Under the pieces are notes generated by a model. The model saw only the letters and a list, made by a program, of their open reading frames with translations. It had not been told where the DNA came from and made no database searches. Source: a virus. From it: a stretch of DNA of 28,878 nucleotides. How positions within the stretch are numbered: the stretch's first letter is position 1; every line of letters begins with the position of its first letter. Shown here one piece after another: positions 375 to 14,237 of the stretch. The translations under genes were made by a program, and so were the position numbers. The stretch lies in the IMG/VR virus record IMGVR_UViG_3300034198_007842, positions 1 through 28,878 of that record; one strand, 5' to 3'.

Positions 375-406
375 TTGTTATTTTGATAGATTATTGTTTA
401 TATTTG
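375..406 (+). promoter_or_regulatory. Bacteroidota-type promoter for the sigma-like gene
   Basis: TATATTTG at 399-406 matches the TAnnTTTG -7 box of Bacteroidota. A TTG at 375-377 lies 21 bases upstream, in the range for the -33 element. The ATG at 415 follows the box by only 8 bases, so the transcript would have almost no leader. The box also rules out the upstream TTG codon at 394 as a start. Confidence 0.65.
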
Positions 407-414
407 TAAACTAT

Positions 415-936
415 ATGAATAAACAAACCATTATTAACATCATCGTTAATCATAAACCTTACGCTAATTATTGTAAGAAATTATGCTTTGATAGAGATAT
501 TCATAATGATTTATATCAGGAGTTCTTTTTAGTTATTGCAGATAAATCTGAAGAGATATTAATAAATGCTTTTAATAATAATCTTTTAGAGTCTTATTGT
601 TTATCTATCATTTATAATCTTAACCTACAAAGACATAGGTTTATGAAAGTAAAAGGTAATGATAATCCTTTACTTGAACATTGCAACTATACTACCGAGT
701 TAAGTCGTCACTTAATTGAAGATAGTTATAATCATTCAATTGATGATAATTACAATAGAGTGATGGAGTTTATTAAAACAAATGAGCAAGTTAAACAATC
801 AGATGTATTTGTATTATTTGAAAGCCTTGATAATCAGATTAAACAAATAGCTAAAGATACCGATATATCATACAGTACATTAAGACAAGGACGTAAAAGA
901 TTAATTAATAATATAAAACAAAATGTTAGAATTTGA
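415..936 (+). CDS. Sigma-factor-like regulator (sigma-70 family-like)
   Basis: The product has 173 residues from ATG 415; the in-frame TTG at 394 lies inside the promoter and is rejected. Residues 29-43 (HNDLYQEFFLVIADK) look like sigma region 2, in which the pattern DL-x-QE is typical of ECF-type sigma factors. Residues 132-170 end in a helix-turn-helix resembling region 4 (QIAKDTDISYSTLRQGRKRL). The linker is longer and more divergent than in host ECF sigma factors. Family knowledge suggests it binds RNA polymerase core or DNA. I infer that it may recognise the three repeated late elements at 3451, 11323 and 13811. It could instead be a sigma-fold DNA-binding protein without promoter activity. 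The gene overlaps the next one by 14 bases. Confidence 0.6.
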   Translation: MNKQTIINIIVNHKPYANYCKKLCFDRDIHNDLYQEFFLVIADKSEEILINAFNNNLLESYCLSIIYNLNLQRHRFMKVKGNDNPLLEHCNYTTELSRHLIEDSYNHSIDDNYNRVMEFIKTNEQVKQSDVFVLFESLDNQIKQIAKDTDISYSTLRQGRKRLINNIKQNVRI

Positions 937-1461: not shown

Positions 1462-1836
1462 ATGAAAAAACTATTAATCCTACCGTTATTCTTATTCGCT
1501 TGTAATAAGAAAACTAATGTACAACCTACAACAACTACTCAACCTATTGTAGTAGCTCCAACTTCTAAACACGTTGAGTTATTTATTACTTATGGTTCAG
1601 TCAATAACTTCTGTTCTGTTAAATGGTCTTTTGATCCTAACATTGATTCAAGTTATTCAACTAATAATACAGTAAATAGATATATTTCTAACTATACTAC
1701 TTCTGATTCTATTCTAGTTTATACTAGCTCTCATTTAGTTAATGCTACATCAAATACAGTATTAGTTCAAGTTGATGGAGTAGTAAGATACCAATGGACT
1801 GGAGTAAATATTGATAAAACTATTAAGATTAACTAA
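1462..1836 (+). CDS. Phage-encoded lipoprotein
   Basis: The product has 124 residues and a clear lipoprotein signal: MKK, a hydrophobic stretch LLILPLFLF, then the lipobox ending FAC with the modified cysteine at residue 14, followed by NKK. After a Thr/Gln/Pro linker (residues 19-34) comes a beta-rich domain of about 90 residues that I do not recognise. It should be lipid-anchored in the host envelope. It is first in the unit behind the 1420 promoter and its stop overlaps the start of the small terminase gene by one base. Phage lipoproteins made from host-type promoters are often superinfection-exclusion factors that block the phage's own receptor; that role is inference here. A spanin-type lysis role is less likely this far from the lysis genes. 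Confidence 0.75.
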   Translation: MKKLLILPLFLFACNKKTNVQPTTTTQPIVVAPTSKHVELFITYGSVNNFCSVKWSFDPNIDSSYSTNNTVNRYISNYTTSDSILVYTSSHLVNATSNTVLVQVDGVVRYQWTGVNIDKTIKIN

Positions 1837-2297
1837 TGGCAAAGCATAAGTATATTGAAACTCCTGAAGAGTTATCTAAGTATTTTGAATTATATAAAAC
1901 AGAATGTAAATCTAATCCTAGAAAAAAACACGTATTTGTAGGCAAAGATGGTACAAGTGATTATGAGTTATTAGAACGACCTTTAACTATGGAAGGATTT
2001 AGAGCTTATTGCTTTGCTAAAGTAGGCTGTGTTAAGCATTATTTTGATAATACAGATAATAGATACGATGAATATAGTACTATCTGTCGCGCGATAAAGG
2101 ATATGATTAGGCTAGACCAAATAGAGGGCGGAATGGTTGGACAATACAACCCATCAATCACACAGCGTTTAAATGGTTTAGTTGAAAAGACTGATAATAA
2201 AAATGATAATGTTAACATCAATAAAAATATTACTGTTGAAGTTATGAAGTCAGATACTAACTTATCAAATAGCGAAAAGGATATTAATTTAGATTAG
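1836..2297 (+). CDS. terS: Terminase small subunit
   Basis: 153 residues. The segment RPLTMEGFRAYC followed by a helical core and QIEGGMVGQYNPSITQRLNGL is typical of the gp3-like small terminase of Bacteroidota phages. The family recognises the packaging site on phage DNA and loads the large subunit. The C-terminal tail after residue 120 (Asn, Lys and Asp rich) is likely flexible. Its start overlaps the lipoprotein stop (TAATG) and its TAG stop overlaps the GTG start of the large terminase gene by one base, so the three genes are translationally coupled. Being immediately before terL supports the call. Confidence 0.8.
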   Translation: MAKHKYIETPEELSKYFELYKTECKSNPRKKHVFVGKDGTSDYELLERPLTMEGFRAYCFAKVGCVKHYFDNTDNRYDEYSTICRAIKDMIRLDQIEGGMVGQYNPSITQRLNGLVEKTDNKNDNVNINKNITVEVMKSDTNLSNSEKDINLD

Positions 2298-3448
2298 TGT
2301 TTAAAGCAAGTGTATTATACGAGGCTAATTATAATGCTACCGAAGATATAATTGTTAATCAAGGTGGCTCAAGTAGTGGTAAAACTTATTCTATACTTCA
2401 AGTATTATTTACTAAAGCTGTAAGTGATTATAATGTAATTACAGTTGTAGGTGAGTCTATCCCTAACTTAAAATCTGGTGCATTAAGAGATGCCTTAGAT
2501 ATTTATAATAGCAGTCCTATTCTCAAATCTCTTATATCTGATTATAACCGTACAGATAGAATATTTCAATTTTCTAATGGCTCTATAATGGAGTTTAAAA
2601 GCTATGAGAATCCACAAGGTGCAAAGAGTGGTAAACGTGATTATCTATTTGTCAACGAAGCTCAAGGTATTTCTAAAGAGGTTTTTAATGAATTGCATAT
2701 AAGGACCAAGAAACAAACATTCATCGACTACAATCCGAATGCTGAGTTTTGGGTACATGAAGATATTATAGGCACTCCGAATACTAAACTATTTATATCA
2801 GATCATAGACATAATCCATTTGTACCTCAAAAGATTAGAGATAAGATTGAGGCATTGAGATATAAAGACATGGAACTATTTAAAGTTTACGCTAGGGGAT
2901 TAACAGGTAAAATAGAGGGCTTAGTCTTTAGAAACTTTGATATAGTTAATGAGATACCTAAAGATGCTGAAGTACTAGGTTTAGGTATAGATTGGGGTTT
3001 TACAAATGATCCTACAACTTTATTAAAAGCATATCGATACAATGGCGAGTTATACATTGATGAGTTAATCTATCAAACAGGATTAACCAATAGTGACATT
3101 ATATCTAAACTTAATCAATTAGGTATTAATAGACGAGATACTATTGTTGCTGATAGTGCAGAGCCTAAAAGTATAACAGACTTACAAAGGGCAGGTTTTA
3201 ATGTTCAAGGTGCTAATAAAGGAGCTGATAGTATCATCAACTCTATTGATACTTTAAAACAGTTTAAAATCAATTTAACAAGGAATAGTACTAATACCAT
3301 TAAAGAGTTTAGAAGTTATAAATGGGCTACTGATTCAAGTGGTAAGACTATCAATAAGCCTGTTGACTTTAACAATCATAGTATTGATGCGATTAGGTAT
3401 ATTGCCTTAAATCTTATCAATAAAACTAGTAGAATTATACTAGATTAA
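2297..3448 (+). CDS. terL: Terminase large subunit (PBSX-like)
   Basis: 383 residues from a GTG start fixed by overlap with the terS stop. The N-terminal ATPase has Walker A GGSSSGKT at residues 23-30 and Walker B DYLFVNEA at 115-122, with Glu121 as the likely catalytic residue. The C-terminal RNase H-like nuclease shows GIDWGFTNDPTT (Asp232), VADSAEP (Asp286) and HSIDAIRY (Asp364), the three acidic positions expected for metal binding. This motor cuts concatemeric DNA and pumps it into the prohead through the portal. The length is somewhat short for the family but all motifs are present. A late promoter element starts three bases after its stop. Confidence 0.95.
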   Translation: MFKASVLYEANYNATEDIIVNQGGSSSGKTYSILQVLFTKAVSDYNVITVVGESIPNLKSGALRDALDIYNSSPILKSLISDYNRTDRIFQFSNGSIMEFKSYENPQGAKSGKRDYLFVNEAQGISKEVFNELHIRTKKQTFIDYNPNAEFWVHEDIIGTPNTKLFISDHRHNPFVPQKIRDKIEALRYKDMELFKVYARGLTGKIEGLVFRNFDIVNEIPKDAEVLGLGIDWGFTNDPTTLLKAYRYNGELYIDELIYQTGLTNSDIISKLNQLGINRRDTIVADSAEPKSITDLQRAGFNVQGANKGADSIINSIDTLKQFKINLTRNSTNTIKEFRSYKWATDSSGKTINKPVDFNNHSIDAIRYIALNLINKTSRIILD

Positions 3449-3450
3449 TA

Positions 3451-3478
3451 TGTCACTTTTAACTTAAAAGTTATTATG
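3451..3478 (+). promoter_or_regulatory. Putative phage late promoter, copy A
   Basis: First of three copies of TGTCACT-N9-AAAGTTATWATG. TGTCACT lies at 3451-3457 and AAAGTTATTATG at 3467-3478. The segment ACTTTTAAC-TTAAAAGT here is also a near-perfect palindrome. The ATG of the next gene (3484) begins 5 bases after the element. TATTAT as -10 would place transcription start on or next to that ATG. The element resembles a -35/-10 promoter and not the host TAnnTTTG type. Confidence 0.65.
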
Positions 3479-3483
3479 TGTAT

Positions 3484-4146
3484 ATGAAATTACCTTATTC
3501 TTTTGAAGATATGACTTTAAGCCAGTTCATGCAATTACATGAATTAGAGCAAGATAAAGGTATTGATATACTAGATAGACAATTAAAGAAACTATCTATC
3601 TTATCAGGTAAGTCAGTAGAATACCTTGAAACTTTAGACATTAAGTTAATTAAAGACTATTTAGCTAAGGTATCTTATACTTCTAATGCTCCAACTGAAA
3701 TGAGAGTAGTCCCTAGATTTAGAGTTAAAGGTATGTTATTAAAACCTACCATGTCACTGCAAGAAATGAAAGTTAATCAATTAGTAGACTTTTATAGCTT
3801 ATTAAAAGCAAGTGACGGTAAATATATTCAATCAGCAAATAAGTTATTAGCTGTAATGTTTAAACCGCTGAAGTTATTTAAAGAGTCGGTTTACAGTCCT
3901 GAGAGCCACGCCAAAATAAGCGAACTATTGTTAAGTGCAAAGGTGGGGGATTGCTTAGGACTGCTTTTTTTTTATTTAAACTTTTGGAACAAATGCGCTC
4001 CGATTATGAGCCGTTATTTGGAGAACAACAACAAAGTAATAGCGGAAATAATGAACGAGATAATGAACGACAAAGAATTCATGGATTCCTTGAACAATGG
4101 GGGTGGGAATATAACATCGACCAATGTGCAGAAAGTGAACGAGTAG
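3484..4146 (+). CDS. Tail assembly chaperone, unshifted form (gpG-like)
   Basis: 220 residues from ATG 3484; the upstream GTG at 3478 overlaps the promoter element and is rejected. MTLSQFMQLHEL near the N-terminus, a conserved middle (residues ~75-110) and a hydrophobic GLLFFYL segment near residue 160 match the tail assembly chaperone type of Bacteroidota phages. These proteins coat the tape measure protein during tail assembly. A run of nine T at 3965-3973 lies in the FF codons and allows a -1 shift. From there to 4146 this frame uses many AAC, TTG and GAG codons that its neighbours avoid, as expected when a second frame is also read. Confidence 0.7.
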   Translation: MKLPYSFEDMTLSQFMQLHELEQDKGIDILDRQLKKLSILSGKSVEYLETLDIKLIKDYLAKVSYTSNAPTEMRVVPRFRVKGMLLKPTMSLQEMKVNQLVDFYSLLKASDGKYIQSANKLLAVMFKPLKLFKESVYSPESHAKISELLLSAKVGDCLGLLFFYLNFWNKCAPIMSRYLENNNKVIAEIMNEIMNDKEFMDSLNNGGGNITSTNVQKVNE

Positions 4147-11322: not shown

Positions 11323-11350
11323 TGTCACTCAGTTAATTAAAGTTATAATG
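11323..11350 (+). promoter_or_regulatory. Putative phage late promoter, copy C
   Basis: TGTCACT at 11323-11329 and AAAGTTATAATG at 11339-11350, at the same spacing as the copies at 3451 and 13811. Here the -10-like hexamer is TATAAT and the upstream part reads TTGTCA, close to a canonical -35. ATG 11356 follows 5 bases after the element. The nine-base spacer differs completely from the other copies, so the two boxes are what is conserved. Confidence 0.65.
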
Positions 11351-12165: not shown

Positions 12166-13185
12166 ATGGCAATATCGTATTCAACAGCGACTGAACCAAA
12201 AGCAGTCATAGAGAAAGTACTAGAAGAGGTACTATTCGCTAACAAAACAATTTCTGAGGGTTATGTAACTTTCAATGATAACATTAAAGCAGGTACTATT
12301 TTCACTGAAGAGAATATGTCTGTAACAGCACAATTATACACAGGTGCAGCGTTATCTTCTAGTGGTACTATCACTTTAACTGATAGAACTATCACTCCAA
12401 CTAAATTAGAGTATAAACAAACTTTCTTACAAGAGTCTTTACGTTCATCTCGCTATAAGCGTTCAATGAAGCCGGGAGCTTGGAATATTGAAAGTTCTGA
12501 ATTTGCATCTAATGTATTAGCTAAGTATGGTCCTAATGTATCTGAAGATGCTGAGTCTATTTTTTGGGGTGGTATCACTTCTGCAACAAAAACAGCTATC
12601 GCAGGTTTAACTCCCGGTGCTTCTCAAGGCTCAATGACTGCTGCAACTCAAACTGCTGTGGCTTCTTTAACTGCTGGTTTAGTAGACGGTGTATTTGCTA
12701 AAGTATTATATGATAACTCTGCTTTAGGTGGATATATCAAGGTAACAGGAACAACAGTTACTAGCTCAAATATCAGCGCTGAGTGTGCCAAAATTTTTGC
12801 TGCAATACCAGCTGAAAATTTAAACGATACAGTTAGCCCAACAGTTATCTACTGTCCTCGTGCATGGAAACAATTAGTATATTCTGCTAACAATGCAGTA
12901 GGTGCTGCTCAACAAATTAACTTCGTAATTGATGGTGCTGATTTCGCTAGCTCTCGTGTTTTCTTTCAAGGTGTAGAAATGTTATTCGTACCTGCTCCAA
13001 ATAACTTAATGGCTTATGCTCAACGTAAAGCAGCAGTATCTTGGAATACTGACTTAGTTGATGATGTTAACCGTTTTGAAACTGGATTATTAGTTAACGA
13101 TGGTGATACTCAATTTGTACGTGCTATTTATACTTTAGCTGCTAACGTAGGTCAAGCAACTAAAGGTGTATTATACGGCGGATAG
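12166..13185 (+). CDS. Major capsid protein (HK97 fold)
   Basis: 339 residues. There is no homology motif that settles the fold by eye, but several features agree: an N-terminal helix (TATEPKAVIEKVLEEVLF), a Phe/Gln-rich region (QTFLQESLRSSRYKRS), an Ala/Thr/Ser-rich central part, and a C-terminal pattern MLFVPAPNNLMAYAQRKA...WNTDL typical of Bacteroidota phage capsids. It lies after protease and scaffold and before the tail tube. The leader is strongly A-rich (AAAAACTAAAAAACA before ATG), the usual high-expression start in this phylum. A long-stem hairpin follows the stop. Confidence 0.8.
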   Translation: MAISYSTATEPKAVIEKVLEEVLFANKTISEGYVTFNDNIKAGTIFTEENMSVTAQLYTGAALSSSGTITLTDRTITPTKLEYKQTFLQESLRSSRYKRSMKPGAWNIESSEFASNVLAKYGPNVSEDAESIFWGGITSATKTAIAGLTPGASQGSMTAATQTAVASLTAGLVDGVFAKVLYDNSALGGYIKVTGTTVTSSNISAECAKIFAAIPAENLNDTVSPTVIYCPRAWKQLVYSANNAVGAAQQINFVIDGADFASSRVFFQGVEMLFVPAPNNLMAYAQRKAAVSWNTDLVDDVNRFETGLLVNDGDTQFVRAIYTLAANVGQATKGVLYGG

Positions 13186-13197
13186 TCAATAAATTAT

Positions 13198-13223
13198 AGT
13201 GAGGGCTTTAACTAGTCCTCACT
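13198..13223 (+). terminator. Hairpin after the major capsid gene
   Basis: AGTGAGGGCT at 13198-13207 pairs with AGTCCTCACT at 13214-13223 over 10 bases (one G-U pair) with a 6-base loop. The following sequence TAACTTTTAAAA is only partly T-rich, so it may be a partial terminator or a 3' structure that protects the capsid message. It lies 12 bases after the capsid stop. Confidence 0.6.
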
Positions 13224-13758: not shown

Positions 13759-13777
13759 TAATTAATTACATTTAAAG

Positions 13778-13809
13778 AGCCTAATCATTAATTTGGTTAG
13801 GCTTTTTTT
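13778..13809 (+). terminator. Rho-independent terminator ending the capsid unit
   Basis: AGCCTAATCA at 13778-13787 pairs with TGGTTAGGCT at 13794-13803 over 10 bases (one G-U pair), loop TTAATT, followed by a seven-T run at 13803-13809. It lies 20 bases after the tail tube stop, and the next late element starts two bases downstream. Confidence 0.85.
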
Positions 13810-13810
13810 A

Positions 13811-13838
13811 TGTCACTTTTTAAATAAAAGTTATTATG
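13811..13838 (+). promoter_or_regulatory. Putative phage late promoter, copy B
   Basis: TGTCACT at 13811-13817 and AAAGTTATTATG at 13827-13838, same spacing as the other two copies. It begins directly after a terminator, and ATG 13845 starts 6 bases after it. This terminator-then-element order is strong support for promoter function. Confidence 0.7.
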
Positions 13839-13844
13839 TAGTAT

Positions 13845-14237
13845 ATGATTTTAATAAATAAAAATGCTACTAATACAGTCGTTTTAACTCTAGCAGAGCG
13901 AACTACTTTAACTAATGTAGTTTATTTATTTGAGTTCATAAAAGATGGTTCTACTGGTAATCCAAAATACTTTATAGCTCAGGATATATCAGTTAACAAA
14001 TTACGTTTCAATGAATTTAATATAATTGAAAATACTACTGAAAATTTATTAATAGGTATAGTTAATTTAGATGTGGCAGATTATAAATACAATATTTACG
14101 AGCAAATAAGTACCACTAATTTAAATCCTAGTGGTTTAAATAAAGTAGAAGAGGGTAAGGTACAAGTTAAAACTAATGCCGTTTCATTAAGTGAGTTTAA
14201 CGGTCAACAAAATACAATAGTTTCATTCAATGGCTAA
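13845..14237 (+). CDS. Small structural protein, Bacteroidota phage type
   Basis: 130 residues. The opening MILINKNATNTVVLTL, then YLFEFIKD, and later YKYNIYEQISTTN form a pattern that I know from conserved hypothetical proteins next to portal or tail genes in Bacteroidota phages. It is beta-rich without a signal peptide. First gene of the third late unit; its end overlaps the portal start by 8 bases. Its exact place in the virion is unknown. Confidence 0.6.
   Translation: MILINKNATNTVVLTLAERTTLTNVVYLFEFIKDGSTGNPKYFIAQDISVNKLRFNEFNIIENTTENLLIGIVNLDVADYKYNIYEQISTTNLNPSGLNKVEEGKVQVKTNAVSLSEFNGQQNTIVSFNG

Follow-up and report, generated by a model that had tools for sequence, protein, structure and literature searches.

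A linear virus record of 28,878 bases, IMGVR_UViG_3300034198_007842 of IMG/VR, whose host is probably a member of the Bacteroidota, encodes a 173-aa protein that is likely a small sigma factor of the extracytoplasmic function (ECF)-like kind, serving late transcription in the manner of phiEco32 gp36 and 7-11 gp47. The whole record is referred to here as the window. An earlier note on this DNA had singled out the gene, placed behind a host-type promoter, as the candidate reader of a second promoter class found at the structural genes. Relatives of the protein were taken from viral contigs and from one contig of the Bacteroidetes genome bin UBA5697, and the family alignment contains 20 members. 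Sequence and predicted fold both show the two domains of an ECF sigma factor, namely a sigma2 domain with a near-invariant DxxQE motif and a sigma4 domain with a helix-turn-helix of the −35-binding type. Comparison across phages further links this gene to three late promoter elements that differ from phage to phage.

Profile searches match the protein over nearly its full length, both with NCBIfam TIGR02985 (E 9.7e-6, residues 15-168) and with the sigma70-ECF profile TIGR02937 (E 1e-4, residues 18-170), the latter being found at E <= 1e-3 in 14 of the 20 family members with a best value of 5.6e-7. Sigma70_r2 of Pfam is matched by four of the 20; the window protein has no Pfam match at the threshold used, and none of the 20 matched a PHROG profile at E <= 1e-3. 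A profile-profile alignment against five ECF sigma factors from UBA5697 (Bacteroidota) gave E 2.2e-7 over residues 16-171 and aligned the DLYQE motif of the window protein on DLLQD. Within this motif E36 is invariant, and D32 and Q35 are present in at least 90% of the 20 sequences; these three residues are the counterpart of the core-binding DxxQE of sigma-70. The sequence signal is weak for each single protein and consistent across the family. Sequence searches of the PDB returned chance matches only (best E 0.047, to unrelated proteins), tblastn of annotated phages with the window protein and its cousins gave no credible relative, and across 395 scanned genomes from the host phylum nothing turned up beyond the phage contig already known and two matches of borderline strength (E 5e-6 and 8e-6). 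The genes upstream of terL, which encodes the terminase large subunit, were also read by eye in Flavobacterium phage FpV9 and Phocaeicola phage BV739P1, and showed no sigma-like gene.

Structure prediction, which the earlier note had named as the check on its region 2-like and region 4-like parts, bears out both of them. A second AlphaFold model was built from 20 sequences, and the predicted local confidence score (pLDDT) averages 75.6 and reaches about 90 for residues 1-70. When the model was aligned with solved structures by VIA-align, sigma factors ranked at the top throughout. Residues 1-82 match the sigma2 domain of ECF factors with Z 8-10.3, including 5uxx_C (Z 10.3 over 83 residues) and 5zx2_F (Z 10.1), while residues 107-173 match 2h27_D, region 4 of E. 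coli SigmaE on −35 DNA, with Z 6.7 and a root-mean-square deviation of 2.7 over 64 residues. The deviation over full-length structure matches is large, which we read as a hinge between the two domains. The predicted fold is therefore that of a sigma factor in both halves, and not one unrelated to sigma factors.

The late elements of the window are real. TGTCAC-N15-TATWAT occurs exactly three times, with a spacer of 15 in each copy, and the extended 28-mer TGTCACN10AAAGTTATWATG is perfect at 3451, 11323 and 13811. With up to three mismatches allowed, the 28-mer has four matches, a number that none of 100 shuffles attained (mean 0.25). Promoters of the Bacteroidota follow the consensus TTTG / TAnnTTTG, with TAnnTTTG as the −7 element (PMC7366714, PMC6847099), and the late elements do not resemble it. 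Element 3 starts three bases past the stem of a terminator hairpin; because this strong terminator directly precedes the element, the gene at 13845 needs a fresh transcription start. A further hairpin with a terminator-like tail is found at 13198-13223, between the genes at 12166 and 13246, with no late element behind it. The 3451 copy contains a perfect palindrome, ACTTTTAACTTAAAAGT (3455-3471), which was discarded as a motif since it shows no enrichment and is missing from the other copies. The exact element of the window was also sought in viral contigs; its eight matches all fall within one unrelated conserved reading frame and are attributed to chance.

Related phages carry counterparts of these elements. 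In full contigs of the closer relatives the element reads TGTAAA-N15 or N16-TATATT, and strict scans of contigs holding the whole structural module found three sites in each phage, all of them on the structural strand and ahead of genes homologous to those at 3484, 11356 and 13845. The scan patterns were specific to each phage and fixed the −35 and −10 letters, leaving free the five letters before the −10 from which most of the within-phage agreement comes. These five letters are themselves phage-specific: AAAGT in the window, AATGT in G001, AAAGG in G002, TTTGG in G012 and AATAC or TTTAC in G011. Over 11 letters at the −10, the sites of one phage differ by 0.4 mismatches on average, against 3.4 for sites at the same gene in different phages (0 of 20,000 permutations). 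Five distant relatives of the sigma-like protein (G014, G015, G016, G020 and G021; E 1e-24 to 1e-58) share the gene order and carry their own elements at the homologues of the three genes; in G020 this is ATTGTAATTTAATA and in G015 ATTGCTATTTA(A/C/T)TA, each present three times at the three genes. A test independent of any motif agrees: shared stretches average 16.0 when the sites come from one phage, 10.9 when they belong to the same gene of different phages, and 9.3 in shuffles (Mann-Whitney p 6e-10, computed on pairs that are non-independent). Since the elements are alike within a phage and unlike between phages, a phage-coded trans-acting reader is indicated. A second, more divergent type of sigma-like gene occupies the corresponding position ahead of the terminase genes terS and terL in G018 (contig L121, 3220-3696; TIGR02937 E 1.6e-8) and has a counterpart in G017. 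No shared element is visible at the three genes alongside this type, G017 included.

The window is a natural recombinant around the packaging genes, judging from sequence distances. Its terL is nearest to the distant group (distance 0.22-0.31, with about 77% identity to the types L075-L111), whereas its sigma-like gene is nearest to the closer group, with G001 at the shortest distance (0.68). The element that lies just behind terL is nonetheless of the window's own type and follows the kinship of the sigma-like gene, not that of the exchanged terL. When the distances of 11 genes were compared with element distance in up to nine phages, the sigma-like gene gave the best correlation (Spearman 0.42, permutation p 0.013, uncorrected for the 11 genes), compared with −0.15 for terL and 0.12 for the portal gene. 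This tracking is suggestive, not proof, of a link between the protein and the elements. The proposal that the sigma-like protein is the candidate reader of the late elements thus gains comparative support, from phage-specific elements at the same three genes that appear to track the sigma-like gene and not terL.

The host-type promoter described ahead of the sigma-like gene is upheld. Its −7 element, TATATTTG, fits the Bacteroidota form and lies 8 nt before ATG 415, but the −33 half, a TTTG at 382-385, ends 13 nt upstream of it and is off the canonical spacing. In the window TATATTTG is no more frequent than chance (6 observed, 5.3 expected), but four of the six copies lie no farther than about 35 nt from a start codon, on the correct strand (415, 1462, 28487 and, on the minus strand, 28445). 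A TAnnTTTG-like element precedes the sigma-like gene in most relatives. The open reading frame caller had placed the start at TTG 394; because this codon precedes the −7 element, ATG 415 is likely the true start. Among relatives, the conserved first codon in L026-L045 is not ATG: the gene has ATC there or an upstream TTG, or an internal ATG some 15 codons on, and so has an unusual start codon or a shorter protein. In L070 (1-1218, G011) a fragment of the sigma-like gene is joined in frame with a helicase-like fragment at the contig end, which is probably an assembly join.

In the mechanism that we propose, the sigma-like protein would be made early, from a promoter read by the host primary sigma, and would bind the host core RNA polymerase. 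The resulting holoenzyme would be directed to the three late elements ahead of the genes at 3484, 11356 and 13845, the heads of virion-gene operons. As the elements depart from the host consensus, they should be silent in the absence of the protein. Because the start codon lies only 6, 6 and 7 nt past the −10 at the three genes, transcription of the late messages would start at or very near this codon; at two of these genes the relatives have an ATG or GTG about as far behind the −10. The late transcripts may therefore be leaderless or near-leaderless, which would be unusual given the rarity of leaders shorter than 10 nt in the host phylum: these make up about 3.7% in B. thetaiotaomicron, and 87% of F. 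johnsoniae transcripts have leaders longer than 10 nt (PMC7366714, PMC6847099). A wider generalization, which we put forward tentatively and regard as somewhat less than an even prospect, is that a broad group of Bacteroidota phages uses one family of tiny ECF-like sigma factors, paired with a CxxC helper, that co-diverge with their three late promoters, so that each lineage has a private late promoter code, possibly with leaderless messages.

Several observations weigh against a late sigma factor. Every family match falls under the curated cut-off (22 bits against 42.9 for TIGR02937, and 25.9 against 126.4 for TIGR02985), for which reason the protein is named ECF-like and not assigned to either family. 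Confidence in the C-terminal domain of the model is moderate (pLDDT about 55-76), and the best solved structure in Foldseek has E 0.16 and probability 0.87. The −35 part of the element is not clear in the distant relatives, and the closer relatives lack the near-leaderless start at the 11356-type gene. The correlation of the sigma-like gene with the elements is modest and its p-value carries no correction for the 11 genes. Finally, the concerted change of the elements points to a trans-acting reader without naming it. This last point would also suit another phage protein as the reader, with the sigma-like protein in some other role such as withdrawing core polymerase from host genes; the record is linear and perhaps not complete, and the small CxxC protein beside the gene is just as conserved. 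Among the scanned window proteins, however, neither a phage RNA polymerase nor another transcription factor was recognized, the sigma-like gene tracks the elements best among the genes compared, and its product is predicted to hold DNA-binding domains of both the −10 and the −35 type, so that we consider a different reader quite improbable.

We also consider it unlikely that the protein works as an activator in the way of RinA / Ltr / ArpU, binding DNA near the late elements and recruiting the host holoenzyme while the host sigma is kept. A helix-turn-helix domain alone would suffice for this task, and the gene occupies the place just upstream of the terminase genes that is typical of RinA, Ltr and ArpU, but an activator has no need for a sigma2-like N-terminal domain with a kept DxxQE. 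Moreover, the elements themselves occupy the promoter position and lack the host TAnnTTTG, and their two boxes at a spacing of 15-16 nt, fixed within a phage, have the geometry of a promoter. The same bipartite spacing of the conserved part argues against elements that are not promoters at all, such as replication or packaging sites or RNA elements at the 5′ ends of messages. The palindrome in the 3451 copy might hint at such a function; it is not common to the other copies, and every copy is oriented with transcription ahead of a start codon, one of them right behind a terminator. A non-promoter role is accordingly very improbable, and a sigma factor for late transcription remains the reading that we favor.

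The positions of the features are collected in Table 1. Downstream, the sigma-like gene overlaps the gene of a small protein with a CxxC motif. In the alignment of relatives examined, this protein measures 75-97 aa and has two invariant cysteines; it may assist or oppose the sigma factor. The divergent sigma-like gene of L121 likewise has a gene for a comparable small CxxC protein beside it (3653-3889).

Table 1 Positions of the sigma-like gene, its neighbors and the candidate regulatory elements in the window.
Feature	Position	Strand	Remarks
Host-type −7 element TATATTTG	399..406	+	8 nt 5′ of ATG 415; fits Bacteroidota TAnnTTTG
Sigma-like protein, 173 aa	415..936	+	ATG 415; stop codon included
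Region 2-like domain, residues 1-82	415..660	+	Predicted fold; near-invariant D32, Q35, E36 (DLYQE)
Region 4-like helix-turn-helix domain, residues 107-173	733..933	+	Predicted fold; 2h27_D match
Small CxxC protein, 85 aa	923..1180	+	Overlaps 3′ end of sigma-like gene; conserved partner
Terminase small subunit	1836..2297	+	Downstream of small CxxC protein gene
Terminase large subunit (terL)	2297..3448	+	Phage lineage differs from most of structural module
Late promoter element 1, TGTCAC-N15-TATTAT	3451..3477	+	ATG 3484 6 nt downstream
Late promoter element 2, TGTCAC-N15-TATAAT	11323..11349	+	ATG 11356 6 nt downstream
Terminator hairpin with U tract	13774..13807	+	−17.6 kcal/mol, z −5.7; directly 5′ of late element 3
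Late promoter element 3, TGTCAC-N15-TATTAT	13811..13837	+	ATG 13845 7 nt downstream

Control of late transcription in Bacteroidota phages is hardly described in the literature that we searched, in which no paper was found on a late-gene sigma factor of such a kind in a Bacteroidota phage; sigma factors are mentioned in one survey for a jumbo phage group that has Bacteroidota phages among its members (PMC7824862). The family matches no PHROG and is without relatives among the annotated phage records searched, and may therefore sit in phage genomes as "hypothetical protein". Because the protein and its putative promoters are both identified here in about ten phages and both vary naturally, the specificity of a small sigma factor can be put directly to the test. 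Laboratory Bacteroidota, in which the native promoters are unlike the usual sigma-70 type, could also be given such sigma/promoter pairs as independent gene switches.

Among known systems, the ECF sigma factors of Bacteroidota (TIGR02985 / TIGR02937) resemble the window protein in size, two-domain build, DxxQE motif and full-length profile match, but the window protein scores well under the family cut-offs, its gene lies in a phage packaging cluster, and no anti-sigma factor was recognized beside it. RinA and Ltr of staphylococcal phages share the genome place and the proposed task, but they are small basic activators as described in the parts of the source consulted, where a sigma2 domain is not mentioned (PMC13123087). 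Closer models are gp36 of Enterobacteria phage phiEco32 and gp47 of Salmonella phage 7-11 (SaPh711_gp47), both phage sigma factors proven on late promoters with host core polymerase (PMC8948821). In the phiEco32 group, the promoters at similar genome positions have a different element where the sigma has diverged, much as divergent sigmas and elements seem to pair among the relatives of the window (PMC8948821). The factor gp36 serves middle and late genes and is aided by a small phage protein, gp79 (PMC8948821), and by analogy the CxxC protein of the window might aid its sigma; gp36 differs in lacking region 4 and reading a single element, tAATGTAtA, where the window combines a region 4-like domain with a two-part element. 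Phage 7-11 belongs to another phage group with hosts of another phylum and has eight late promoters in place of three. Its phage-coded sigma serves late genes from two-part promoters while early promoters are left to the host sigma, as is proposed for the window, and the 7-11 promoter GTAAtg-(16)-aCTA is similar in style to TGTAAA-N15/16-TATATT in the window's relatives (PMC8948821). By these analogies, the protein would represent a new family of a known kind of phage late sigma factor.
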